Of a stretch of 27,276 bases of DNA, positions 38-9,278 are shown one piece after another. The notes under the pieces were generated by a model. It made no database searches, was not told where the DNA came from, and was given only the letters and a program-made list of their open reading frames with translations. Each line of letters begins with the position of its first letter. Position 1 is the first letter of the stretch. Source of the stretch: a virus; IMG/VR virus record IMGVR_UViG_3300043436_003924, positions 1-27,276 of that record. One strand, written 5' to 3'. The position numbers and the translations under genes were made by a program.

Positions 38-69
38 AGTAAGCAAGAAGTTGTTTACACGCTCTTTGA
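38..69 (+). repeat. boxA-type transcribed leader, copy 1
   Basis: These 32 bases are identical to 6714-6745. The 3' part, GCTCTTTGAAAATT (61-74), matches the boxA antitermination signal of bacterial rRNA leaders (known function: NusB/NusE loading to keep RNA polymerase processive through untranslated RNA). The first base of the repeat coincides with the predicted transcription start, so the whole element should be in the RNA. A role in antitermination of the tRNA array is inferred from motif and position. Confidence 0.65.
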
Positions 70-82
70 AAATTTAGAATCA

Positions 83-486
83 GTTGTTTTGTTTCGCTTA
101 GAAACTTCAAACAACACCTGCATAGATGAAAGTCGATAATTGTGGGGTAAGTAGAGAATGACTCTACTTACACATACACAAACGCTAACAGAAGGCTAGT
201 CCGGAGGCCGTTATGCTAAGTTTTTGTGTAGCTGTAAGTAGAGTCTTGCTACTTGGTTATTCGATGCTGTGAATAATTTGCAACAGCATTTGATGATTGT
301 GCCAAGTAGTAACGAGATTGCTAATAGCCAGTGCGAAACTGGCTATTATTATACACGGTAATAGAATGCTCCAGAGTTTTTTTATCATCGTGTATTTATA
401 CTAGCGCAGGAGGACAACTCCGTAAGCCGCAAGAACATCGGTGCCGCAAGACCTTACAGCGGTTAAATTATCGGAGTGGTATCCGA
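83..486 (+). ncRNA. candidate structured RNA upstream of the tRNA array, with alternative helices
   Basis: No credible ORF occupies this stretch. Helices visible by eye: 83-89/109-115 with 91-95/101-105; a perfect 10-bp hairpin 147-156/162-171 (loop AATGA); a competing helix 162-171/234-243 continued by 176-182/223-229; 249-256/302-309 enclosing 264-270/283-289; a perfect 10-bp hairpin 323-332/338-347 (loop GCGAA); 351-357/389-395; and 471-475/482-486. The segment 234-243 repeats 147-156, so 162-171 can pair with only one of them at a time. I do not recognise the family. It ends about 20 nt before tRNA-Asn and is preceded by the promoter and boxA leader, so it is likely the 5' domain of the array transcript or a separate RNA processed from it. 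The boundaries are approximate. Confidence 0.55.
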
Positions 487-506
487 CAGATCCAAACTCA
501 TAGTGT

Positions 507-582
507 TCCTCGTTAGCTCAGTTGGTAGAGTATCTGACTGTTAATCAGAGTGTCGCTGGTTCGAGCCCAGCACGAGGAGCCA
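507..582 (+). tRNA. tRNA-Asn(GUU)
   Basis: Acceptor TCCTCGT/ACGAGGA pairs perfectly, with discriminator G579 and encoded CCA 580-582. The anticodon arm TCTGA-CTGTTAA-TCAGA gives GUU. The D-loop has GG and the T-loop is TTCGAGC. It is the first gene of the array. Confidence 0.96.
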
Positions 583-589
583 AAAATAC

Positions 590-677
590 GGAGCGTGGGC
601 AGGATGGTAATGCAGCAGATTGCTAATCTGTACTACCCGCAAGGGTAGACTGGGTTCGATTCCCAGACGCTCCGCCA
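590..677 (+). tRNA. tRNA-Ser(GCU)
   Basis: Acceptor GGAGCGT/ACGCTCC, discriminator G and encoded CCA. The anticodon loop TTGCTAA gives GCU. The long variable arm CTACCC-GCAA-GGGTAG is typical of class II tRNA-Ser. The same arm sequence recurs in the truncated tRNA at 1438-1512. Confidence 0.95.
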
Positions 678-686
678 TGATAGTTT

Positions 687-763
687 GGGGATTTAGCTCA
701 CCTGGGTAGAGCGATTGCTTTGCAAGCAATAGGTAATCGGTTCGAGTCCGATAATCTCCACCA
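687..763 (+). tRNA. tRNA-Ala(UGC)
   Basis: Acceptor GGGGATT/AATCTCC includes a G3-U70 wobble, the alanine identity element. Anticodon arm ATTGC-TTTGCAA-GCAAT gives UGC. T-loop TTCGAGT, discriminator A and encoded CCA. Confidence 0.96.
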
Positions 764-776
764 AAATTGAAAGGAA

Positions 777-905
777 GACTCATAGTTTGCGTTTAGCCCG
801 TTAATTCGGATTGGGCGGAAAATGGATGAGTCACGCCACGAGCGGGTTGGGGGCTGCGTGACGAAGTTGAATTGTGAAGCAGTTGTCGGTCTGCGTCAAA
901 AAACA
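777..905 (+). ncRNA. ORF-free foldable spacer between tRNA-Ala and tRNA-Gly
   Basis: Helix GACTCAT (777-783) pairs with ATGAGTC (826-832) and encloses GCCC/GGGC (796-799/813-816). A second, partly competing hairpin pairs GTCACGC (830-836) with GCGTGAC (856-862). A third small hairpin, GCAG/CTGC, follows. The two large helices share bases 830-832, so they may alternate. No ORF with a ribosome site is present. It could be an independent small RNA or a processing spacer, and its function is unknown. Confidence 0.35.
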
Positions 906-916
906 CCGTCAAAATT

Positions 917-990
917 GCGGGTATTGTGTAATGGTAAGACCTTAGCCTTCCAAGCTAATGACACGAGTTCGATTCTCGTTACCCGCTCCA
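917..990 (+). tRNA. tRNA-Gly(UCC)
   Basis: Acceptor GCGGGTA/TACCCGC, discriminator U and encoded CCA. The anticodon arm TTAGC-CTTCCAA-GCTAA gives UCC. The D-loop carries the GG dinucleotide and the T-loop is TTCGATT. Confidence 0.95.
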
Positions 991-999
991 ACTGTACTC

Positions 1000-1092
1000 C
1001 TGTAGCTATGCTGCATCATAGTAGCCACAGGGAAGGAGAGCAATGCAGGCTCTCCGAGAGATAGGTTTTCGGTAAAGCCCAAACCGAGATAT
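1000..1092 (+). ncRNA. hairpin-rich spacer between tRNA-Gly and the next CDS
   Basis: Hairpins seen: CCTGT/ACAGG enclosing CTATG-ctgcat-CATAG; GGAGAGC-aatgcag-GCTCTCC; and GGTTT/AAACC closing a short loop. No coding potential is seen. It may be a processing spacer or part of the leader of the 1110 CDS. Function unknown. Confidence 0.3.
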
Positions 1093-1109
1093 GTGTGAAA
1101 GAGGATAAT

Positions 1110-1364
1110 ATGAAAACACTAGAAGAAAAAAGAGAATTTTACGAACGCTGCGGTGAAATACTAGGAATAGCACATGTTTACAACAAACCTGTGCCGCGGC
1201 GCAATAGGTGGAACAACAGGAGACTGGGTAACGGACGTTATCCAGGATTTGGACTAGTACAGTGCTATGGTAACAGTGCTAGAGTTATGAGTAAACACGG
1301 AACAAAAATGTTTGACTCATATGAAGCAGTATATAATTACTTAACAAAAGTTTTGCCCTTATAG
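1110..1364 (+). CDS. small basic hypothetical protein (84 aa) overlapping tRNA-Thr
   Basis: ATG 1110 is chosen over the upstream in-frame GTG 1095 because GAAAGAGG sits 5 nt before it. The product (MKTLEEKREF...) is basic in the middle (PRRNRWNNRR), with no membrane segment and no family I recognise. The last codons and TAG stop overlap the first 10 nt of tRNA-Thr(UGU), so RNase P cleavage of that tRNA would remove the stop and leave a non-stop message. The Gly/Arg/Trp-rich core could bind nucleic acid, but that is a guess from composition. Confidence 0.7.
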   Translation: MKTLEEKREFYERCGEILGIAHVYNKPVPRRNRWNNRRLGNGRYPGFGLVQCYGNSARVMSKHGTKMFDSYEAVYNYLTKVLPL

Positions 1365-1430
1365 CTCAGCTGGTAGAGCATCTGATTTGTAATCAGAGGG
1401 TCGGCGGTTCAAGTCCGTCTGGGGGCACCA
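1355..1430 (+). tRNA. tRNA-Thr(UGU)
   Basis: Acceptor GCCCTTA/TGGGGGC includes two G-U pairs. Anticodon arm TCTGA-TTTGTAA-TCAGA gives UGU. T-loop TTCAAGT, discriminator A and encoded CCA. Its 5' end lies inside the upstream CDS. Confidence 0.94.
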
Positions 1431-1437
1431 AAATATG

Positions 1438-1512
1438 TCGCGTTAGCAAAACGTTAATGCGCTACCCGTGCAAGGGTAGAGGCCGGTGGTTAAATTCCCC
1501 GACGCGACTCCA
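1438..1512 (+). pseudogene. truncated class II tRNA (Ser-like), D arm and anticodon arm damaged
   Basis: A perfect acceptor GTCGCGT/ACGCGAC, discriminator U and encoded CCA flank only 57 nt. A long variable arm CTACCC/GGGTAG is present, almost the same as that of tRNA-Ser(GCU). Between acceptor and variable arm there is room for only one weak hairpin (GCAAAACGTTAATGC), so a D arm plus normal anticodon arm cannot both be formed. The T-loop reads TTAAATT and lacks the invariant C56. It is either a decayed tRNA-Ser or a D-armless tRNA-like RNA kept for another purpose. Confidence 0.6.
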
Positions 1513-1516
1513 AAAT

Positions 1517-1524
1517 AATAAATA
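1517..1524 (+). promoter_or_regulatory. T4-like late promoter, 4 nt before the ATG
   Basis: AATAAATA matches 7 of 8 positions of the T4 late -10 element TATAAATA. It is followed by CTGT and then ATG 1529. In T4 the start site is about 5-7 nt past this element, which would place it at the ATG. Confidence 0.6.
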
Positions 1525-1528
1525 CTGT

Positions 1529-1924
1529 ATGAAAATACTTGAAGTAGTAGCAAAATTAACCAAAGACGTTGATCCTGAAACTGGTGACCGTACTGTCGGT
1601 GCCAATGTAACTGATTTTAAAAACGAGTACAACCGAGTCGTTGTATTACCAATGAATCAGATACGGTCTAGGTTTGAAGGTGACGGTAAAGGTGATCCTA
1701 ACGATGTTGATGCTAGAGCAAATATAAACAGTATTAAAAAACAAATAAAACAAGATATCAGCAAGATACCTCCAATATTGGTAAGAAGACTTCCACGAGA
1801 AAATACTTACCAAGTAATAGATGGACATCACAGATACTTTGCGTTTGATGAAATGAACATAAAACGTATACCAGTAATAATAATGTCAGCTGGACAATTT
1901 ACTGGTGACAAATACAAAAAATAA
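1529..1924 (+). CDS. ParB/sulfiredoxin-fold nuclease-like domain protein (131 aa)
   Basis: ATG 1529 follows a late promoter. A longer upstream reading (from 1457) would run through the truncated tRNA and is rejected. The C-terminal half reads ISKIPPILVRRL, then VIDGHHRYFAFDE, then IPVIIM. The D-G-H-H-R signature with flanking beta strands is the ParB-like nuclease (ParB/Srx) fold core. There is no HTH DNA-binding domain, so it is not a partition ParB. Phages carry many such orphan domains, whose roles vary (nuclease, ATPase, phosphotransfer). It resembles the 8221 protein only in fold. The stop lies 1 nt before tRNA-Leu. Confidence 0.7.
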   Translation: MKILEVVAKLTKDVDPETGDRTVGANVTDFKNEYNRVVVLPMNQIRSRFEGDGKGDPNDVDARANINSIKKQIKQDISKIPPILVRRLPRENTYQVIDGHHRYFAFDEMNIKRIPVIIMSAGQFTGDKYKK

Positions 1925-1925
1925 T

Positions 1926-2007
1926 GCGGATATGGTGTAATGGTAGCCACGCTAGTCTTAGGAACTAGTGCGTAAGCGTGGGGGTTCGAGTCCCTCTATC
2001 CGCACCA
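1926..2007 (+). tRNA. tRNA-Leu(UAG)
   Basis: Acceptor GCGGATA/TATCCGC, discriminator A and encoded CCA. Anticodon arm CTAGT-CTTAGGA-ACTAG gives UAG with G37. A medium-long variable arm is present, as in tRNA-Leu. It starts 1 nt after the upstream stop codon. Confidence 0.93.
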
Positions 2008-2025
2008 AAATTATAAAGGAATATA

Positions 2026-2472
2026 ATGATATATTATAAGATAGTTGATTTTATACCCAAGATACCAGATAATCTTTTAAAAAGCTTGGATGAAATTGAA
2101 ACTTATGAAAATGCATTTCCTTATAAGGATTATGCAGATACGTATGCAAGTTATATAGTTAATGATGATTTAACCGAATGGATACAAAACTATTTTGATA
2201 AAAAAATGGTAGTTAGATATCAAGTTATAAAAAAGATTTTGCCTATTCATGTTGATATTGGTATTAAAGGAATTAAATATAATTATCTTCTAGAAACTGG
2301 TGGCGAAGCTGTGAAAACTAGATTTTGGGATAGTGTAGAAAATCCTACTAAAATTTTGTTTGAAACAATAAGCAAAAAAAACGAATGGCACTATCTTAAT
2401 ATAGAAGTACCACACGACATATCAGAAGTTTCATCACCGAGAATAAGTGTGATAGTTAGAGAATCGTTGTAA
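2026..2472 (+). CDS. 2-oxoglutarate/Fe(II) oxygenase-like protein (148 aa)
   Basis: The start is ATG 2026 after the site AAAGGA. A candidate jelly-roll oxygenase metal triad is visible: H75-x-D77 in PIHVDIG, H130 in IEVPH, and R139 (PRISVIV), which would bind the 2-oxoglutarate carboxylate nine residues after the distal His, as in prolyl-hydroxylase-type enzymes. The strand KYNYLLETGGE after HxD also fits the fold. At 148 residues it is a minimal domain and its substrate is unknown. T4-like marine phages often carry such small oxygenases (family knowledge). It lies between tRNA-Leu and tRNA-Gln, 11 nt from the latter. Confidence 0.55.
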   Translation: MIYYKIVDFIPKIPDNLLKSLDEIETYENAFPYKDYADTYASYIVNDDLTEWIQNYFDKKMVVRYQVIKKILPIHVDIGIKGIKYNYLLETGGEAVKTRFWDSVENPTKILFETISKKNEWHYLNIEVPHDISEVSSPRISVIVRESL

Positions 2473-2483
2473 ATAAAAATTAT

Positions 2484-2559
2484 TGGGAAGTAGCTCAATT
2501 GGTAGAGTACCGGACTTTGAATCCGTTGGTTGGTGGTTCGAATCCACCCTTCCCAGCCA
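2484..2559 (+). tRNA. tRNA-Gln(UUG)
   Basis: Acceptor TGGGAAG/CTTCCCA, discriminator G and encoded CCA. The anticodon loop CTTTGAA gives UUG. The anticodon stem has four good pairs and one terminal C-U mismatch. T-loop TTCGAAT. Confidence 0.93.
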
Positions 2560-2580
2560 ACTTTAACAAAAGGAAAAAGT

Positions 2581-2775
2581 ATGAAACTTGACTTAACTGA
2601 ACTTCTTTATAAACTGTCAACTAGCAAAAGTAGCCTAGGTGAGATTCTTGAAAAAGAGTTTGCAATACAAGTATCGAATGAAATACGTCGTTACGAAAAC
2701 GAAAAAAGAAATCTTGCACTAGATGACTTTGTAAAAGCAGTAATAGAATCTCAAAATCCGCCAACGATTCATTAA
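2581..2775 (+). CDS. small charged hypothetical protein (64 aa)
   Basis: ATG 2581 is preceded by AAAGGA at proper spacing, and longer readings would start inside tRNA-Gln. The protein (MKLDLTELLYKL...) looks all-helical and charged, with an EIRRYENEKRN segment. There is no membrane segment or known motif. Its stop is 8 nt before tRNA-Pro. Function unknown. Confidence 0.7.
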   Translation: MKLDLTELLYKLSTSKSSLGEILEKEFAIQVSNEIRRYENEKRNLALDDFVKAVIESQNPPTIH

Positions 2776-2783
2776 TGCATTAT

Positions 2784-2860
2784 CGGAGTGTAGCTCAGCT
2801 TGGTAGAGCGCTTGGTTTGGGACCAAGATGTCGTGGGTTCGAATCCTGTCACTCCGACCA
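2784..2860 (+). tRNA. tRNA-Pro(UGG)
   Basis: Acceptor CGGAGTG/CACTCCG, with the proline elements C1-G72 and A73, and encoded CCA. Anticodon arm CTTGG-TTTGGGA-CCAAG gives UGG with the expected G37. Confidence 0.95.
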
Positions 2861-2876
2861 ATTTTAAACTGTTGAT

Positions 2877-3042
2877 CTAACCTCGTACTGAAACAAATAG
2901 CCATAGGCTCAGGCAGGAAGTACGGCGTATATAGTGTTAGACAACATTCGGACCGAGTCATACGTGAGGTCCAGCAAAGCGGTGCGGGAACGAACAAGCG
3001 GTAGAAGTACTATCGTGAGGCGAACGGGCTGACATAGTTGGT
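2877..3042 (+). ncRNA. structured spacer RNA between the two tRNA-Pro genes
   Basis: About 210 nt without an ORF. CTAAC (2877-2881) pairs with GTTAG (2936-2940), enclosing CGTACT (2884-2889) with AGTACG (2919-2924) and an inner GCC/GGC hairpin. GGACC (2950-2954) pairs with GGTCC (2968-2972), and GGTAG/CTATC forms a further hairpin near 3000. Nested closure by two helices argues for a folded domain. The family is unknown. Confidence 0.4.
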
Positions 3043-3072
3043 TGCAGTTTGGGTCTTGTTCAAGTAATTTGC

Positions 3073-3150
3073 CTGGGTGTAGCTCAGTCTGTGTAGAGTG
3101 CTTGCCTTGGAAGCAAGAAGTCGCAGGTTCAAATCCTGTCACCCAGACCA
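3073..3150 (+). tRNA. second tRNA-Pro-like gene (UGG) with A37 and odd D-loop
   Basis: Acceptor CTGGGTG/CACCCAG keeps C1-G72 and A73, with encoded CCA. Anticodon arm CTTGC-CTTGGAA-GCAAG reads UGG, but position 37 is A instead of the G37 found in bacterial proline tRNAs. The D-loop (AGTCTGTGTAG) lacks the normal GG pair. The T arm is normal (TTCAAAT). It may be a functional variant or a decaying paralogue. Confidence 0.75.
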
Positions 3151-3161
3151 GACAAAACAAT

Positions 3162-3235
3162 AGGGGTGTGGTGAAATGGTATCACAGAAGTCTCCAAAAC
3201 TTTTAGCGGGGGTTCGATTCCCTCCACCCTTGCCA
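3162..3235 (+). tRNA. tRNA-Trp(CCA)
   Basis: Acceptor AGGGGTG/CACCCTT (one G-U), discriminator G and encoded CCA. Anticodon loop CTCCAAA gives CCA on an AAGT/ACTT stem. T-loop TTCGATT. Confidence 0.92.
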
Positions 3236-3243
3236 ACTACAAT

Positions 3244-3320
3244 GCGCTCTTGGTGCCAGATGGATGGTCACAGGGATTCTAACCCCTAGGAGGCAGGCTC
3301 GATACCTGTAGGGCGCACCA
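3244..3320 (+). tRNA. tRNA-Arg(UCU) with an irregular anticodon stem-loop
   Basis: Acceptor GCGCTCT/AGGGCGC, discriminator A and encoded CCA closely resemble bacterial tRNA-Arg(UCU). The anticodon arm does not form a normal 5+7 structure. Either a 7-nt loop ATTCTAA sits on three G-C pairs plus two mismatches, or an 8-nt loop ATTCTAAC sits on AGGG/CCCT. The T-loop begins C (CTCGATA) instead of T. UCU is the natural reading, and the loop also contains CUA one base over. Confidence 0.8.
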
Positions 3321-3338
3321 TTTCGAAGGAGAGTAAAC

Positions 3339-3515
3339 ATGCACATGACCAAAAAAGAAATAGAAACTGCTGTTCGAGTTTGGCCAGCTAATGCAGAGGC
3401 TCCGCTGACTAGAGATCAGCAAATAGAACTAATGACTACTGCAAAGGTTAGACACCTTGCTAGAATTGAAAAAACGATCAGACTAATCAAAGGAGAAAAC
3501 GATGTCGTAGATTGA
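3339..3515 (+). CDS. small hypothetical protein (58 aa)
   Basis: ATG 3339 is preceded by GAAGGAGAG, a strong ribosome site 18 nt after tRNA-Arg. The product (MHMTKKEIET...) is helical and basic at the C-terminal end (RHLARIEKTIRLIKG). The stop TGA 3513-3515 lies across the start region of the next gene, so the two are probably translationally coupled. No family recognised. Confidence 0.65.
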   Translation: MHMTKKEIETAVRVWPANAEAPLTRDQQIELMTTAKVRHLARIEKTIRLIKGENDVVD

Positions 3516-3516
3516 A

Positions 3517-4071
3517 TTGCTTTGTAAAGATGTGGTGTTCCACTTCAATAAGAAACACTTAGAAGATACTAGTATTCCTATGTGGGTGCTTAAAACACGA
3601 GGAGAAACCTACTACGTAAATCACGTAAGTTGTAGTGTTCCGTGGAGTACTAAAGAAACGCCGGATAACAGTCATACCAAAGGTGCAATTAAAGTTAAAG
3701 ATTGTGTTGTAACAATTGACGACGATAACTGTGCTGACATTCGTGTGATAACTCCAGCAGATCGGGTAAACTTTCAAAAAAAGCAAACCGTTAGAGTTAT
3801 AACTGAATATGGTAAGAAGTTAAAAGATGCACTTGTAAACATGAGCCACAGTCCTGTAAAGTTAGCTGGCGGCGGATGTGGGACTACTTGGTATATTACA
3901 GATATTCCAAGTATGAAACATTTTTTATTGTTACAGTTGCAAATTCCTAGCATAAGAGTTCTTAAAGAAAACGAAGACTACTATAAAAAGTACGATTCAA
4001 GTCCGGACGAATGGCTAGATGAAGATAATTATATCGACGACGATGATTACGAGTCACTTTATGAAAATTGA
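3517..4071 (+). CDS. hypothetical protein with acidic tail (184 aa); in-frame amber just upstream
   Basis: The open frame starts at TTG 3517. In the same frame, 15 nt upstream, ATG TCG TAG (3502-3510) sits behind a good AAAGGAG, so the ancestral start is probably ATG 3502 with an amber at codon 3. Translation may now reinitiate at TTG 3517 or a later ATG (3580), or read through. The protein has a mixed alpha/beta body (WVLKTRGETYYV, DCVVTIDDDN, GGGCGTTWYITDIPS) and a very acidic C-terminus (DEWLDEDNYIDDDDYESLYEN). No known domain recognised. TAG ends other genes here (1364, 8661), so general amber reassignment is unlikely. Confidence 0.65.
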   Translation: MLCKDVVFHFNKKHLEDTSIPMWVLKTRGETYYVNHVSCSVPWSTKETPDNSHTKGAIKVKDCVVTIDDDNCADIRVITPADRVNFQKKQTVRVITEYGKKLKDALVNMSHSPVKLAGGGCGTTWYITDIPSMKHFLLLQLQIPSIRVLKENEDYYKKYDSSPDEWLDEDNYIDDDDYESLYEN

Positions 4072-4243
4072 AGTCAGCAAAGATCATCTCGGATCGGTAA
4101 CTCGTGCTATAAAGCAATATCGTTTACGACATAGACCATTTAACAAACTTATAAATAGCTACAGCATATATTTGTATCCTAGCAAAAAATTAAGTTTGTT
4201 TTTGATCCAAATTTCTAATGCTAATGTAACAGTGTTAGAATAA
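4061..4243 (+). CDS. small basic hypothetical protein (60 aa)
   Basis: ATG 4061 overlaps the end of the preceding gene by 11 nt in another frame, consistent with coupled translation. The product (MKIEVSKDHLGSVTRAIKQYRLRHRPFNKL...) is basic, with a hydrophobic C-terminal part (SLFLIQISNANVTVLE). The stop is 1 nt before tRNA-Gly(GCC). Function unknown. Confidence 0.55.
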   Translation: MKIEVSKDHLGSVTRAIKQYRLRHRPFNKLINSYSIYLYPSKKLSLFLIQISNANVTVLE

Positions 4244-4244
4244 T

Positions 4245-4319
4245 GCGGGCGTAGCTCAGGGGTAGAGCGCAACCTTGCCAAGGTTGATGTCGTGGGTTCG
4301 AATCCCATCGCCCGCTCCA
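4245..4319 (+). tRNA. tRNA-Gly(GCC)
   Basis: Acceptor GCGGGCG/CGCCCGC, discriminator U and encoded CCA. Anticodon arm CAACC-TTGCCAA-GGTTG gives GCC. It complements tRNA-Gly(UCC) at 917. Confidence 0.96.
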
Positions 4320-4336
4320 TAATAGAAAGTAGTCGA

Positions 4337-4912
4337 ATGAATAATTTTGAACATTTTTATCAGTCTCCCAAGTTTGGTGAAGAGTGGTTTACCTATCCTA
4401 CTCTCTACACAGAGATGGTACAACAATTTCCATCAGGAAGTAAGTTTGTCGAAGTTGGTTGCTGGAAGGGTAGATCTGCTGCATATATGTGCGTCGAAAT
4501 TGCTAACTCAAATAAAGATATTGATTTTTACTGTGTTGATTTTTGGGAAGTTGGTAAAGAACATGCAGAACAAAACCCTCACTTGAAATATCTGTATGAT
4601 ATATTTTTAGAAAATTTAAAACCTGTTGAAGCGTATTATAAACCGATGAAAATACCATCTGTTGATGCTGCAAAAAAGTTTAAAGACGAAAGTTTAGATT
4701 TTGTTTTTATCGATGCAGGACACGAATATGATCCAGTAAAAGAAGATATTCTTGCATGGTTTCCAAAAATTAAACCGGGTGGTATATTAGCAGGACACGA
4801 TTTATATCCAACTGAACCAACCTGGGGAGATGTTCATAAAGTAGTGGAAGAACTTTTTCCAAATAAGTATGAAGCTCGTATAAAAGAAAGTTGTTTTCTT
4901 GTACGTAAATAA
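4337..4912 (+). CDS. class I SAM-dependent methyltransferase (Methyltransf_24-like, 191 aa)
   Basis: ATG 4337 is used. An upstream in-frame extension would enter tRNA-Gly. Motif I is VEVGCWKGRSAA (about residues 38-49), the glycine-rich SAM loop. The acidic strand end is YCVDFW. Motif IV/post-IV is LDFVFIDAGHEYDPVKEDILAWFPKIKPGGILAGHD, matching the cephalosporin-hydroxylase/Methyltransf_24 type in which the D-G/A-x-H-xY block precedes K-P-G-G. Such proteins commonly modify sugars or small molecules. The substrate here is unknown, though a role in glycan or DNA-base decoration is possible. No strong ribosome site is visible. It lies between tRNA-Gly and tRNA-Thr(AGU). Confidence 0.8.
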   Translation: MNNFEHFYQSPKFGEEWFTYPTLYTEMVQQFPSGSKFVEVGCWKGRSAAYMCVEIANSNKDIDFYCVDFWEVGKEHAEQNPHLKYLYDIFLENLKPVEAYYKPMKIPSVDAAKKFKDESLDFVFIDAGHEYDPVKEDILAWFPKIKPGGILAGHDLYPTEPTWGDVHKVVEELFPNKYEARIKESCFLVRK

Positions 4913-4915
4913 TTT

Positions 4916-4989
4916 GCCGGTATAGCTGAGTGGTTTAGCAGCTGATTAGTAATCAGCTGACGGGAGTTCGATTCTCTCTACCGGCACCA
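4916..4989 (+). tRNA. tRNA-Thr with anticodon AGU
   Basis: Acceptor GCCGGTA/TACCGGC, discriminator A and encoded CCA. Anticodon arm GCTGA-TTAGTAA-TCAGC (extendable to 6 bp) gives AGU. G35/U36 and G1-C72/C2-G71 fit threonine identity. A34 is unusual for bacterial tRNAs other than Arg(ACG). Confidence 0.88.
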
Positions 4990-5037
4990 TTTATATTGAT
5001 ATAAAATTGTAATTCATAATTTTATAAATTGTTAAAT

Positions 5038-5045
5038 AATAAATA
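5038..5045 (+). promoter_or_regulatory. possible late promoter of the desaturase gene
   Basis: AATAAATA (7/8 match to TATAAATA) lies 21 nt before ATG 5067. The surrounding AT-rich sequence lowers the specificity of the match. Confidence 0.35.
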
Positions 5046-5066
5046 GTAAAAATTATAAAAAGTGAA

Positions 5067-5837
5067 ATGTATAACATGAATTATCATATAAAAAACTTTA
5101 TTGCACCCATACACGTCTTATTTTTAATATCACTGGTTGGTATATATTTTAATGTAGTTGAGTTTTATCTTTGGCTTTTTTTATTAGGTTGGACATTAAT
5201 TTATGGTTTAGGACTTGTAGTTGGATTTCATAAATTATTATCTCACAAATCTTTTACAACAAACAAATATGTATCTTATTTCTTAGCTTACTTAGGATGT
5301 TTGGGAATTAGTGGATCACCTATTTGGTGGGCTGCTATACATAGAGGTCATCACCATGCTCACACAGAAACAGAAAAAGATCTCCAAACTCCTCGTCGAG
5401 GATGGTTTAATTCTTACATTGGATGGCAGTTTGGCGATGATACAAGTAAAATAAGTTTAAAATATGCTGCTGATTTAATAAAAGATCCAGTTCTTTTGTT
5501 TTTACATAAGAATTATCGTGCTGTTGTTTGGGGAACAGTGATGCTTGTTGGCGTGTTATCACCGAGTGTTGCCGTTTCATTGTTGATATTTCCAATGATT
5601 GCAGCACATCATGGTGAAAATATTACTAATTTATTTGGGCATAGTAGATTTGCTGGTTATAGAAATTTTGATACCAAAGACGATACTGTAAATAATCCAG
5701 TATTGGCTTTTATAACTTGGGGTCAACTACTGCACAACAATCATCATGCTAAACCAAATAATGACAGTTTTGCTATTAAGTGGTTCGAGATTGATCCAAC
5801 CTTTCCCTTTGTTTGGTTTTTAAAAAAATTAAAATAA
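5067..5837 (+). CDS. membrane fatty-acid (acyl-CoA/acyl-lipid) desaturase, 256 aa
   Basis: This is an integral-membrane di-iron desaturase that would insert a cis double bond into acyl chains. All three histidine boxes are present: HKLLSH (55-60), HRGHHH (92-97) and HNNHH (223-227). Hydrophobic spans flank them (about 11-30, 33-54, 68-90 and 150-180). The W-W-A-A-I-H-R-G-H-H-H context is characteristic of the delta-9 stearoyl-CoA desaturase family. It is shorter than many bacterial members (about 300-380 aa) and lacks a fused cytochrome b5, so it must use host electron donors. ATG 5067 is chosen, and ATG 5076 is also possible. A phage desaturase would plausibly remodel host membrane fluidity during infection (inference). 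Composition is as AT-rich as its neighbours, so it is not a very recent acquisition. Confidence 0.88.
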   Translation: MYNMNYHIKNFIAPIHVLFLISLVGIYFNVVEFYLWLFLLGWTLIYGLGLVVGFHKLLSHKSFTTNKYVSYFLAYLGCLGISGSPIWWAAIHRGHHHAHTETEKDLQTPRRGWFNSYIGWQFGDDTSKISLKYAADLIKDPVLLFLHKNYRAVVWGTVMLVGVLSPSVAVSLLIFPMIAAHHGENITNLFGHSRFAGYRNFDTKDDTVNNPVLAFITWGQLLHNNHHAKPNNDSFAIKWFEIDPTFPFVWFLKKLK

Positions 5838-5892
5838 TCAAGTTTTTATAAAAAAATTAAAAAAACTACTTAATAAGTAGAACAACATACAC

Positions 5893-5945
5893 TATATTAA
5901 ACAAGTAAGCAGCAAAGGTGTTGTTTATACGCTTCAAAATATACA
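5893..5945 (+). promoter_or_regulatory. divergent third copy of the RNA-locus leader, upstream of the SGNH gene
   Basis: ATTAAACAAGTAAGCA (5896-5911) is identical to 6706-6721. After a short insertion, GTTGTTTA-t-ACGCT (5920-5934) also matches. A good -10 (TATATT, 5893-5898) is present at the homologous place, but no TTGACA is seen 17 bp upstream. The boxA core is degraded (ACGCTTCAAAATAT). Confidence 0.5.
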
Positions 5946-5951
5946 TAGGTA

Positions 5952-5959
5952 GATAAATA
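5952..5959 (+). promoter_or_regulatory. T4-like late promoter, 5 nt before the ATG
   Basis: GATAAATA (7/8 match to TATAAATA), then TTTTT, then ATG 5965. The spacing is as at 1517, 8209, 13450 and 16447. Confidence 0.55.
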
Positions 5960-5964
5960 TTTTT

Positions 5965-6648
5965 ATGAAAAATGTTTGGATTTTCGGTGACAGTTATGCA
6001 GATAAAAATTATAACAACGCCTGTATCGAAAATTGGCCAATGTTATTAGAAAAAAAATATAATGTAAAAAACTTTGCAGTTGCAGGTTCTGGTCCAGAAT
6101 ACAGTATTAACACTTTGTATAACGAATTTAGAAAAACTAATGCAACTGACGTAAAAAAAACTACAGTTATATTTTTCATAAGTGCAGTATCTAGATACAA
6201 CTTTTCTTTTTTACCACCACAATATCAGTGTTTAATAAAATTTGTAAATTATAATAAATCTGACATAAATCGCAAGCTTATTAATGCTCATGGAGACAAA
6301 AAGAAAATTTTATTTTTACAAGAATTTTTTAGAGAATATCATCTAAATCAACCCGATGAAATACAATATTTAAAAATATTAGGAACACTACAGATTTTAA
6401 GCAACAGATTTGAAAAAGTGTTGTGTATACCTTGTTTTAATCACATACCCGACTATGTTTCAACAAATACAGACAATTTTTATCTCTTTTCTCATATACC
6501 GTTTTATGTTAAAATGGACAAACAAAACTTTAAGTTTGGTCAAGATCCAAGATCAAATCATCTAGATAACGATAAACATCTAGAATTTTATGAACAATTA
6601 AAAAATTGGATTGATTTTAATCTTCTTGTTGACATTGAAAAAAAATAA
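5965..6648 (+). CDS. SGNH/GDSL-hydrolase-like protein (227 aa)
   Basis: The N-terminus VWIFGDSYAD carries the block I Gly-Asp-Ser (8-10) with the nucleophile candidate S10. A block III-like GSGPEYSIN follows near residue 41. The C-terminal block has D194PRSNHLDNDKH205, which could supply the catalytic Asp/His (H199 or H205). SGNH enzymes hydrolyse esters on lipids or acetylated glycans. In phages they are often virion or cell-surface-modifying proteins, but no fibre domain is fused here. No signal peptide. A late promoter and the divergent RNA-locus leader both lie upstream. The substrate is unknown. Confidence 0.65.
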   Translation: MKNVWIFGDSYADKNYNNACIENWPMLLEKKYNVKNFAVAGSGPEYSINTLYNEFRKTNATDVKKTTVIFFISAVSRYNFSFLPPQYQCLIKFVNYNKSDINRKLINAHGDKKKILFLQEFFREYHLNQPDEIQYLKILGTLQILSNRFEKVLCIPCFNHIPDYVSTNTDNFYLFSHIPFYVKMDKQNFKFGQDPRSNHLDNDKHLEFYEQLKNWIDFNLLVDIEKK

Positions 6649-6680
6649 TAGTTAAATAACAGAAAAATTTTAAAAAGAGG

Positions 6681-6708
6681 TTGACATTGTGCGTAACGAT
6701 GTTAAATT
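6681..6708 (+). promoter_or_regulatory. sigma70-like promoter of the large RNA locus
   Basis: TTGACA lies at 6681-6686 and TAAATT at 6703-6708, with a 16-bp spacer. It is homologous in layout to 4-32. The predicted start at about 6715 coincides with the start of the shared leader. Confidence 0.65.
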
Positions 6709-6713
6709 AAACA

Positions 6714-6745
6714 AGTAAGCAAGAAGTTGTTTACACGCTCTTTGA
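6714..6745 (+). repeat. boxA-type transcribed leader, copy 2
   Basis: The 32 bases are identical to 38-69. They end in ACGCTCTTTGA and are followed by TAATTT, an rRNA-type boxA. The flanking promoter and downstream sequences differ, so conservation is focused on the leader itself, as expected of a functional RNA signal. Confidence 0.7.
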
Positions 6746-7795
6746 TAATTTGGTAAACACTGTGTTTACACAGGTATATTGGGTAGTAGCACTGTCAAGT
6801 AACTAGGGTGGTTCCTAGCGAAACAACAGGGCCACACGCTACTGACAATAGGTTGAAATGGCAATGCTAACCACTATGTCTATCGACTGACGATAAGATA
6901 AACAATATATCGTTGTAAACACAGTAAGATGGGCGGCTTAGCGTCCACATAAGGGTAAGTGCAGTAATGCACCCAAAGCAAGGTTTCCTATAAACTTGCG
7001 CCAGCAATGGTCCATCTAAGCAAGCCTGGGTTAACATTACTCGTCTTGAGCGTAAGTAATGTCCGTCCGTAGAAAGGCGGTATCCAGTAAGTTAGAAGAA
7101 CTGTCCGTAAGGATAGTCGCAGAGCCGGTCGGTGAGCGATAAGAGGGTTGGCGCCCGAACAGTTTTTAGCCAAACTAACGAATGGAAAATACCAACAGGT
7201 AGTTAACTAGTCTGAGCCTGCAAGCAAAGGCAAGTTAGCATCTTGAGCGTTGAAGGGAATTAATAAACCGGAGACGTGAAAAGACGTTGAGTAGTCCGCA
7301 AGACAAAAGACAGTCGGTGTGTTGTATTTTGCGTCTAACAAGGCGTGAAGCAACTGGGACAGCACATCGAAGTAGGTTCGCAATATTGCTTAACGGTAAA
7401 GCAATCGTCTTGATAACGATCGAATGCGGGTTCAACTCCTGCTATTGAAACAAAAGCGAAAGACTGTCCCGGTACGTTGTGAAAGGTGGTTAATGCCACA
7501 CTCGCAAGAGAATGTGGTCTACGGATGCTCGCAAGGCTGATGTAGTTGTTCGGAAAGATAGCGTAACGGTTTAGCGACTGTGAACTGCTCGCAAGGCAGA
7601 CGAAAGATAGAAGGACGAGTAGCAACGTGCGACGAGAGAAACGCCACTCTCCAAAAAAGGCACCACTGGGAGATACAGGATGACCGTAAAAGGCTCCTGT
7701 GGATAACGAGAGAACGTGGCTCGCAAGGCTAACGGTAATGCTCAAAGGCTCCTACAGCAAGGCATAATCTCAGCCTATGCAAAAATTAAGTTTAA
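6746..7795 (+). ncRNA. candidate giant ornate structured RNA (GOLLD/ROOL-like), about 1.05 kb
   Basis: This stretch has no plausible gene on either strand, is dense in hairpins, and follows a promoter plus boxA. Visible helices: GTAAACA/TGTTTAC (6753-6759/6763-6769); GTGC/GCAC near 6958-6972; ACATTAC/GTAATGT (about 7033-7061); TCC-GTAA-GGA (about 7104); AGTTT/AAACT (about 7161-7175); and GGGACAG (7356-7362) with CTGTCCC (7464-7470), which closes around a tRNA-like domain. At least four loops read TCGCAAG (about 7502, 7529, 7588, 7720), several closed by GC pairs. Known biology: GOLLD and ROOL RNAs are phage-encoded, 500-900 nt, beside tRNAs, and some GOLLD RNAs contain a tRNA. I cannot confirm homology, so the ends and family are uncertain. 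RNase P RNA and tmRNA signatures were not seen. Confidence 0.6.
7379..7449 (+). tRNA. tRNA-like domain inside the large RNA; no CCA
   Basis: The D arm GCTT-AACGGTA-AAGC, anticodon arm ATCGT-CTTGATA-ACGAT and T arm GCGGG-TTCAACT-CCTGC are all well formed. The acceptor has only CAATA/TATTG (7381-7385/7443-7447), with the two terminal pairs broken, and no CCA follows. By geometry the anticodon would be UGA with T37, which is not a functional serine tRNA (no long arm, pyrimidine 37). GAU is one base over. It is enclosed by the 7-bp helix 7356-7362/7464-7470. It reads as a tRNA mimic or degenerate tRNA built into the RNA. Confidence 0.6.
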
Positions 7796-7873
7796 CGACA
7801 TGTTAGTTCAAAAACCGGTACCGTTTGTGGAAAGTGATAAGAGGATTGACATATCTTTTAACTTAACTTGTTG

Positions 7874-8033: not shown

Positions 8034-8037
8034 ATAT

Positions 8038-8113
8038 TGCGGGGTAGAGAAGCGGCATCTCGTTTGGCTCATAACCAAAAGATCGTGGGTTCGAGTCCCA
8101 CCCAGCGCAACCA
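8038..8113 (+). tRNA. tRNA-Met(CAU) with imperfect acceptor stem
   Basis: D arm GAGA/TCTC, anticodon arm TTTGG-CTCATAA-CCAAA (CAU), T arm GTGGG-TTCGAGT-CCCAC and encoded CCA are good. The adjacent 5' strand TGCGGGG pairs with CAGCGCA only with a two-base mismatch or bulge. A distant 5' sequence TGCGCTGG (8008-8015) pairs perfectly with CCAGCGCA (8102-8109). The anticodon stem lacks the three G-C pairs of initiator tRNA. A CAU tRNA could also be Ile(k2C), which I cannot exclude. Confidence 0.75.
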
Positions 8114-8119
8114 AACACT

Positions 8120-8210
8120 GGAAGTTTGGCAGAGATGGATTATTGCACCGGTCTTGAAAACCGACGGCGCTGAAAGGCGTCCCAGGGTTCGAATCCCTGA
8201 ACTTCCGCCA
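8120..8210 (+). tRNA. tRNA-Ser(UGA)
   Basis: Acceptor GGAAGTT/AACTTCC, discriminator G and encoded CCA. Anticodon loop CTTGAAA gives UGA. The long variable arm is GGCGC-TGAAA-GGCGTC-like, as expected for serine. Confidence 0.95.
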
Positions 8211-8216
8211 TAAATA
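8209..8216 (+). promoter_or_regulatory. T4-like late promoter overlapping the CCA end of tRNA-Ser
   Basis: CATAAATA (7/8 match) begins inside the tRNA CCA and is followed by ATGT and ATG 8221. The spacing of 4 nt to the start codon predicts a leaderless transcript. Confidence 0.55.
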
Positions 8217-8220
8217 ATGT

Positions 8221-8661
8221 ATGAAATATAAAGAACTTTTTGAGTTAAGAAATACTGCGATGGATTACTTTAAACAAAAGTTTCCACGTACACCAGATTA
8301 TGTCATACAAGACTTTATATACAAGCATTATAAAAACAATCCCGATCAAATCGATTCTGACACAGTAGATTGGTTGAACGAGTTAACTTGGGATAAAAAA
8401 ACAATACTTGTAACACTTGATATTTTTGACGACTGGACACAAGATCGTTTACGTCAGCTAATAGGCGATGCTGCACAAACAGCAGATCCTAGATACAAGA
8501 CACAACAAGATATAGTAAATAAAACTGGCATAAGCAACGAACCAATTATAGTTACAGTAGAAGATGGTAAGTATGTTTTGCAAGAAGGATGGCACAGAAC
8601 TGTTGCAGCATTAAAAAAGTATCCTAAGGGATACAAACAGGTTGCATATATAGGTAGTTAG
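8221..8661 (+). CDS. ParB/Srx-fold-like hypothetical protein (146 aa)
   Basis: The C-terminal part reads EPIIVTVEDGKYVLQEGWHRTVAALKKY. A beta strand, then a G-x-H-R-x-x-A-A helix start, resembles the ParB-like nuclease core seen in the 1529 protein (DGHHR). The helical N-terminal half (MKYKELFELRNTAMDYFKQKFPRTPDYVIQDFIY) has no family I recognise. It is a single-domain orphan beside tRNAs, driven by its own late-type promoter. Function unknown, and nuclease activity is not implied. Confidence 0.6.
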   Translation: MKYKELFELRNTAMDYFKQKFPRTPDYVIQDFIYKHYKNNPDQIDSDTVDWLNELTWDKKTILVTLDIFDDWTQDRLRQLIGDAAQTADPRYKTQQDIVNKTGISNEPIIVTVEDGKYVLQEGWHRTVAALKKYPKGYKQVAYIGS

Positions 8662-8679
8662 TGCTATATTACAAATAAG

Positions 8680-8754
8680 GCGGAATTAGCTCAGTGGTAG
8701 AGCCCCTCGTTTACACCGAGGTTGTCGGGAGTTCGACCCTCTCATTCCGCACCA
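8680..8754 (+). tRNA. tRNA-Val(UAC)
   Basis: Acceptor GCGGAAT/ATTCCGC, discriminator A and encoded CCA. Anticodon loop TTTACAC gives UAC on a CCTCG/CGAGG stem. T-loop TTCGACC. Confidence 0.94.
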
Positions 8755-8759
8755 ATTAA

Positions 8760-8806
8760 GACCGAATGTCACTGTACTGGTCTAGTCACCTTTATACACT
8801 TCGGTC
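8760..8806 (+). ncRNA. hairpin between tRNA-Val and tRNA-Asp
   Basis: GACCGAA (8760-8766) pairs with TTCGGTC (8800-8806), extendable through GT/AC, closing a 33-nt loop. It is not followed by a T run, so it is not a terminator. Probably a processing spacer. Confidence 0.3.
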
Positions 8807-8815
8807 GTCTAATAC

Positions 8816-8892
8816 GGCCTGTTAGTCGAGTGGTTTAAGACGTCGGCCTGTCACGCCGAAGATCACGGGTTCAATCCCCGTACAGGTCGCCA
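8816..8892 (+). tRNA. tRNA-Asp(GUC)
   Basis: Acceptor GGCCTGT/ACAGGTC (one G-U), discriminator G and encoded CCA. Anticodon arm TCGGC-CTGTCAC-GCCGA gives GUC. Confidence 0.94.
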
Positions 8893-8895
8893 ACA

Positions 8896-9058
8896 TTTTT
8901 TTCGAAGTGAAACAAGGTAGTTACAGTAATCAATTATGTAGCGTTCACATTCTAGTCCTTGTTTAAATGGTGTAAAAAGAGACATATAGATGTTCTTAAG
9001 GCAGCTGGGCCCGTTAAAATTCTACTAGAGAATGAGCTGATGCCAGCTTCGAAAAAAA
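8896..9058 (+). ncRNA. compact structured RNA closed by a perfect 12-bp helix
   Basis: TTTTTTTCGAAG (8896-8907) is exactly complementary to CTTCGAAAAAAA (9047-9058). Inside, AAACAAGG (8910-8917) pairs with CCTTGTTT (8957-8964), ACAT/ATGT forms a small hairpin near 8982, and AGCTGG (9003-9008) pairs with CCAGCT (9043-9048, overlapping the closing helix by two bases). No ORF or ribosome site. It lies 3 nt after tRNA-Asp and 2 nt before tRNA-Leu, so tRNA end processing would release it as an RNA of about 165 nt. The family is not recognised. Confidence 0.55.
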
Positions 9059-9060
9059 TT

Positions 9061-9144
9061 GCCCCTATGGTGAAATGGTAGCCGCGGAAGATTCAAAATC
9101 TTTTGCCGAAAGGCGTGCTGGTTCAAGTCCGGCTAGGGGTACCA
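9061..9144 (+). tRNA. tRNA-Leu(CAA)
   Basis: Acceptor GCCCCTA/TAGGGGT (terminal G-U), discriminator A and encoded CCA. Anticodon loop TTCAAAA gives CAA. Variable arm TGCCGAAAGGCGT as in class II. Confidence 0.93.
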
Positions 9145-9154
9145 AATACTAAAT

Positions 9155-9238
9155 GCCCGCTTGGTGAAATTGGTAGCCGCGGCAGACTTAAAATTTGCTT
9201 CCTCAGGAGTGCCGGTTCGAGTCCGGCAGTGGGCACCA
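9155..9238 (+). tRNA. tRNA-Leu(UAA)
   Basis: Acceptor GCCCGCT/AGTGGGC (one G-U), discriminator A and encoded CCA. Anticodon loop CTTAAAA gives UAA. Variable arm CTTCCTCAGGAGT. It is the last gene of the array. Confidence 0.94.
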
Positions 9239-9252
9239 ATACAAAAGATACA

Positions 9253-9275
9253 AAAGGCACCCTAGGGTGCCTTTT
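9253..9275 (+). terminator. Rho-independent terminator ending the tRNA array
   Basis: A perfect 10-bp stem AAAGGCACCC (9253-9262) and GGGTGCCTTT (9265-9274) with a 2-nt TA centre is followed by T-rich TCTCTT. It lies 15 nt after tRNA-Leu(UAA) and immediately before the ligase promoter, so it separates the two transcription units. Confidence 0.9.
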
Positions 9276-9278
9276 CTC

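Follow-up and report, generated by a model that had tools for sequence, protein, structure and literature searches.

A probable rRNA-type antitermination leader in front of the tRNA array and the GOLLD RNA of a phage

The stretch of viral DNA analysed here (the window) comprises 27,276 nucleotides (nt) of the IMG/VR record IMGVR_UViG_3300043436_003924 and contains two copies of a 32-nt repeat, each of which precedes a region of non-coding RNA. The identity of positions 38-69 and 6714-6745, pointed out in a preliminary description, was confirmed by direct sequence comparison: all 32/32 nt are the same (AGTAAGCAAGAAGTTGTTTACACGCTCTTTGA), and ungapped similarity of the two copies extends at 90% over 25-75 and 6701-6751. 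Chance is not the expected origin of the repeat, since the exact recurrence of a 32-mer within 27 kb is expected with a probability of the order of 1e-11 in random sequence. It represents one part of a cassette composed of a sigma70-type promoter, a small hairpin and a boxA (CGCUCUUUGA-N-AAUUURG), as follows.

4-32, + strand: promoter 1, TTGACA (4-9), 17 nt spacer, TAAGTT (27-32), predicted start ~39
39-58, + strand: hairpin of leader 1, GUAAGCAA-GAAG-UUGUUUAC, 8 base pairs with a GAAG loop, fold z -3.3
60-77, + strand: boxA copy 1, CGCTCTTTGAAAATTTAG, of the 18-mer class of rRNA leaders and phage tRNA-array leaders
6681-6708, + strand: promoter 2, TTGACA, 16 nt spacer, TAAATT, predicted start ~6715
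6715-6734, + strand: hairpin of leader 2, same letters as the hairpin of leader 1
6736-6753, + strand: boxA copy 2, CGCTCTTTGATAATTTGG

As had been proposed, the repeat begins at the predicted transcription start, which the TTGACA/-10 geometry places at ~39 and ~6715. The two promoters had been considered unlike, a view that we could not uphold: both carry TTGACA and they are related, because their -10 regions are similar (GTTAAGTTAACAC vs GTTAAATTAAACA). In both copies the hairpin is followed by CGCUCUUUGA and an A/U-rich tail, and the boxA is located 27 nt behind the -10 region, i.e. in a promoter-proximal 5′ leader with a preceding hairpin. The hairpin of leader 1 occupies a boxB-like position and ends 1 nt before boxA.

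Copy 1 heads a tRNA array, the first tRNA of which lies at 507, with small open reading frames (ORFs) interspersed among the tRNAs. The RNA behind copy 2, so far an unnamed structured RNA, could be assigned: its 3′ domain is a GOLLD RNA (Rfam RF02032 at 7314-7776, E 3.6e-53, 192.8 bits for a gathering score of 150, model positions 1-416 of 416), with a tRNA-Ser(UGA) at 7379-7451 in the loop of this domain.

507-4989, + strand: tRNA array behind leader 1, 13 tRNA loci, 12 found by ARAGORN and one by Rfam (1437-1509)
6754-7800, + strand: GOLLD RNA, a variable 5′ domain followed by the conserved 3′ domain at 7314-7776; the outer ends are approximate

The boxA of the window is not an isolated case. 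IMG/VR was searched with the 18-mer CGCTCTTTGANAATTTRG and, as a control, with the same letters reversed; the resulting counts are counts of contigs and not of independent samples of nature. The 18-mer matched 89 stretches and its reversed form matched 6. Among the 82 sites with enough room, 47 have a tRNA on the same strand within 700 nt downstream, compared with 14/82 upstream and 0/82 in antisense orientation, and none of the control sites has a tRNA. With near-identical sites merged, in a set that also takes in the one-base variants GCTG and TGCT, 53/83 clusters precede tRNAs. The one-base variant CGCTGTTTGA was rejected as a control because it is not clean: 6/16 of its loci (L098, L100, L101, L102, L104 and L112) themselves carry the same leader type, with tRNAs in view in five of the six, while L102 has the same sequence as L101 on a contig that stops short of any tRNA. 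The reversed pattern was therefore used. In these six loci CGCTGTTTGA takes the place of CGCTCTTTGA and might be a boxA variant.

The remaining parts of the cassette recur together with the boxA. A strict sigma70 promoter is found 8-41 nt before boxA in 36/57 phage leaders vs 2.3% of shuffled sequences (a looser promoter score, which 23% of shuffles pass, was dropped). In 38/57 leaders the last paired base of a predicted fold (mean z -1.9) lies within 3 nt of boxA, even though the sequences differ. Promoter, hairpin and boxA are all retained among related phages with varying hairpin letters, and it is the shape of the hairpin that is kept, because two leaders of one phage often differ in their hairpins (L003, L004). 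Per whole phage contig (42-382 kb) the boxA motif occurs in only 1-2 copies, with up to two mismatches allowed.

Many of the phage boxA sites that do not precede tRNAs belong to a second class. Here a promoter and two hairpins are followed by CGCTCTTTGACAATTTGG, ~10 nt and a small ORF beginning with ATG (MTLKDLRARAASIGIRIEAERF... in L025), as in L013, L014, L018, L019, L025 and ~20 similar loci, which possibly represent a boxA-controlled protein operon. Other boxA types gave little. The Gram-positive boxA GTTCTTTGAAAACTRRA provides no support, with 1/107 viral sites before a tRNA, equal to the upstream rate, and the gamma-type boxA TGCTCTTTAACAATTT, with 5/104 before and none upstream, is suggestive only. 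In four viral contigs (L238, L252, L293, L345) the gamma-type sequence lies 23-30 nt before a tRNA gene, with a hairpin directly 5′ of it in L252 and L345.

The tail of the repeat had been taken for the boxA of rRNA leaders, and this is supported by its occurrence in bacteria. The exact 18-mer is present in 91 stretches of genome contigs, most of them probably by chance, and only the matches next to 16S, or at contig ends with an rRNA-adjacent appearance, were used. In Thalassovita, Roseovarius and a further genome of the Rhodobacteraceae it precedes 16S by 190-321 nt; in Celeribacter, Granulosicoccaceae and Alsobacter it is found at such contig ends. A 17-mer occurs 1-2 times per genome in the six genomes holding it. 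In rRNA leaders sampled by means of a 16S 5′-end pattern, YGCTCTTTGA is common among Rhodobacteraceae and the A/T tail is variable, so that the 17-mer (up to one mismatch) is found in only 15/198 sampled Rhodobacteraceae, part of them by chance. The phage of the window is probably a large one of the alphaproteobacteria type. Its ClpP is nearest to those of Phosso and Atu_ph07, two Rhizobiaceae jumbo phages, which makes an alphaproteobacterial host likely. A boxA match is thus found in rRNA leaders of a likely host class, as sampled in Rhodobacteraceae, and for this class the refuting condition named in the preliminary description, absence of any such match, does not hold.

The likeness to rRNA leaders extends beyond boxA. 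In Rhodobacteraceae the boxA of the rRNA leader is followed by a second element of the form stem / UA / hairpin / GAUNAU / closing strand of the stem, detected in 12/18 Rhodobacteraceae rRNA leaders vs 0/30 leaders of other sampled Alphaproteobacteria. Its pairing is supported by covariation, both sides changing in 9/11 pairs (0/500 shuffles). A structure scan finds the element after boxA in 19/57 phage leaders vs 0.035% of shuffles; elsewhere it gives 6 matches in 2.02 Mb, four of the six behind a variant boxA. Since the scan was devised with both the rRNA and the phage side in view, we also trained a covariance model on rRNA leaders alone. Up to E 5 it returned 15 matches in 600 kb of phage DNA, of which 14 lie behind boxA or a near variant. 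Searches with three leaders against named phages revealed no isolate with the second element. In the window the structures that follow the first boxA are these.

82-116, + strand: intervening stem-loop, fold GUUGUUU...AAACAAC, between boxA and the second leader element
117-146, + strand: second element, CCUGCA / UA / GAU-GAAA-GUC / GAUAAU / UGUGGG, the sole window site found by the structure scan

The stem-loop at 82-116 occupies the place of the boxC-bearing hairpin in rRNA leaders, a likeness in position only. Judging from the sequences compared, the second element common to Rhodobacteraceae rRNA leaders and phage leaders is newly recognised here. Alphaproteobacterial phages could even copy the whole rRNA leader, with the UA/GAUNAU element acting as an undescribed part of antitermination or co-transcriptional folding, an assignment made because in phages 30S assembly cannot be its role; we consider this a tentative proposal, for which the chances are nearly but not quite even. 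In addition, a number of jumbo-phage leaders (L003, L038, L039, L041, L100) share a conserved sequence, GTAAGTAGA, ~60-100 nt past boxA, and behind it a hairpin whose loop resembles GCACCAAC.

A boxA in front of GOLLD is likewise found in other phages. The distance from boxA to the GOLLD 3′ domain is 578 nt in the window and 529-603 nt across the window and six other phages of its kind; in an eighth phage of the group, L006, CGTTCTTTGA is found at the place of boxA. The unrelated roseophages MD18, DSS3_MAL1 and vB_RpoS-V10, which are far smaller (146-150 kb) and have a gene order unlike that of the window phage group, possess a single boxA before a cluster of tRNAs, GOLLD and transfer-messenger RNA (tmRNA). 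In roseophage clusters headed by boxA a permuted alpha-type tmRNA directly follows GOLLD (L009 6731-7146, L010 6570-6986, L011 6652-7043).

Taken as a whole, the repeat is probably a transcribed antitermination leader of the rRNA type that serves two non-coding units and would recruit the Nus machinery of the host and confer resistance to Rho. That the phage leader is a copy of an rRNA leader is suggested by boxA, the order of hairpin and boxA, and the second element common to both; the recruitment of Nus factors and the escape from Rho are what we infer from this likeness. In rRNA operons NusB-S10 binds boxA and, together with NusA, NusG, SuhB and S4, renders the polymerase resistant to Rho and aids rRNA folding (PMC4807359, PMC5725501, PMC6614801, PMC10250234). 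By analogy, the nascent phage boxA would be bound by host NusB-S10, upon which the host rRNA antitermination complex (NusA, NusG, SuhB, S4) would assemble on RNA polymerase. The modified polymerase would then ignore Rho over kilobases of untranslated RNA, allowing the long tRNA and GOLLD transcripts to be completed, and the complex may also aid folding of the tRNA precursors and of GOLLD RNA. An N-like phage protein appears not to be needed, because the hairpin letters vary from leader to leader, within a single phage too.

The closest known counterpart is the bacterial rRNA operon leader (boxB-boxA-boxC, Nus/SuhB), which likewise has a hairpin before a promoter-proximal boxA and untranslated stable RNAs behind it; the phage boxA is letter-identical to the rhodobacterial version. 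It differs in that the phage leader drives tRNAs and GOLLD instead of rRNA. Lambdoid nut sites (boxA-boxB, protein N) are also phage-borne boxA sequences for which host Nus factors are expected; however, their order is the reverse, since the phage hairpin precedes boxA, and they act on early genes rather than untranslated RNA. A lambda-type nut site does not agree with this order, nor with hairpin letters that vary between leaders. The nearest known use of boxA outside rRNA, according to the passage of PMC7862264 that cites Stringer et al. 2020, doi 10.7554/eLife.58182, is in front of bacterial CRISPR arrays, again a long non-coding array, although a cellular immune one and not a phage tRNA/GOLLD operon. 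The window RNA is a member of the GOLLD family (RF02032), with a tRNA in the loop and tRNAs alongside, and the difference lies in its boxA leader. A literature search reaching few subscription journals found no mention of a boxA leader in front of GOLLD or of the tRNA arrays of phages, and a published boxA survey states that non-coding RNAs were not considered (PMC5725501).

Several observations weigh against an antitermination leader of the rRNA type. Some phage lineages have CGCTGTTTGA at the boxA position. No boxA-like match was detected at the GOLLD of Sinorhizobium phage Phosso or Vibrio phage D69, and GOLLD therefore does not require boxA. The GOLLD leader of the window, copy 2, is without the second element. 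Finally, the rRNA-trained model gives the site at 117-146 a score of only 8.3 bits and ranks it ninth within the window; the assignment of the site is based on its position and on the relatives L022 and L028, relatives being scored higher by the same model.

The host Nus complex might instead act mainly as an RNA chaperone or processing aid, for GOLLD folding and tRNA precursor maturation, with Rho resistance being secondary. This would be in line with the role of the Nus/SuhB complex in rRNA folding and 30S assembly (PMC4807359, PMC5725501, PMC6614801), with the large size of GOLLD, which assembles into a 14-mer cage (PMC12286853), and with the separate leader placed directly on GOLLD in the phage group of the window. 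The same leader, however, is found on tRNA arrays of contigs without a GOLLD match (L048, L070, L085), and we regard a predominant chaperone function as rather unlikely. Much less credible is the idea that strongly transcribed boxA leaders are decoys which bring ribosome synthesis to a halt by drawing NusB-S10 off the rRNA operons of the host. It would suit virus takeover, and a boxA at the extreme 5′ end behind a good promoter would be appropriate for it, but the leaders precede long RNAs instead of standing alone and a phage has only one or two of them. Still somewhat less plausible is a promoter or operator shared at the DNA level for a phage or host regulator, the likeness to boxA being incidental. 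While the -10 region and the leader start are indeed alike in both copies, the promoters and spacers differ, the hairpin letters change across leaders with pairing kept and boxA fixed, and boxA and the second RNA structure recur in bacterial rRNA leaders. The least probable reading of all is that the two copies have no common function and stem from a segmental duplication of recent date or are a scar of recombination. The identical hairpins in the window genome and a decayed third copy ~820 nt upstream of copy 2 could be cited for it, but in L003, L004, L022 and L028 two leaders of one phage with unlike hairpins retain the same boxA, pointing to selection, not recency, as what keeps it.

An antitermination leader of the rRNA type suggests how phages complete long untranslated tRNA and GOLLD transcripts, and would link GOLLD to the apparatus with which the host builds its ribosomes. 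A natural test of the parts of an rRNA leader is offered as well: an element retained both in rRNA leaders and in those of phages likely has a general role in transcription or RNA folding. For uncultured phages, the second element may indicate rhodobacterial hosts.

Three further features of the window complete the RNA region.

5870-5945, + strand: TTAATA-17-TATATT and a variant hairpin of a decayed third leader that has lost boxA (cgcttcaaaata)
8037-9238, + strand: tRNA genes downstream of GOLLD, by tRNA prediction
9254-9277, + strand (the scan listed the other strand): intrinsic terminator closing the RNA region, AAAAGGCACC-CTAG-GGTGCCTTTT then CTCTT

On the + strand before 9254 there is no convincing intrinsic terminator, the sole other candidate (5390-5402) being weak and within a coding gene. 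A partial third copy of the repeat had been noted before the SGNH gene. This holds for the -10 region and a variant hairpin (~5890-5945); TTGACA and boxA are both lost, and for want of the boxA letters the third copy is not a boxA leader. Between the tRNA-Thr and the GOLLD leader, at 5067-6648, the window has two genes, one resembling fatty-acid desaturases and the other SGNH-like. In L003 the GOLLD leader closely follows the tRNAs, so that the two genes of the window look inserted beside the decayed third leader. The tRNA-Thr itself, predicted at 4916-4989, has the anticodon AGT, which is unusual in bacteria.

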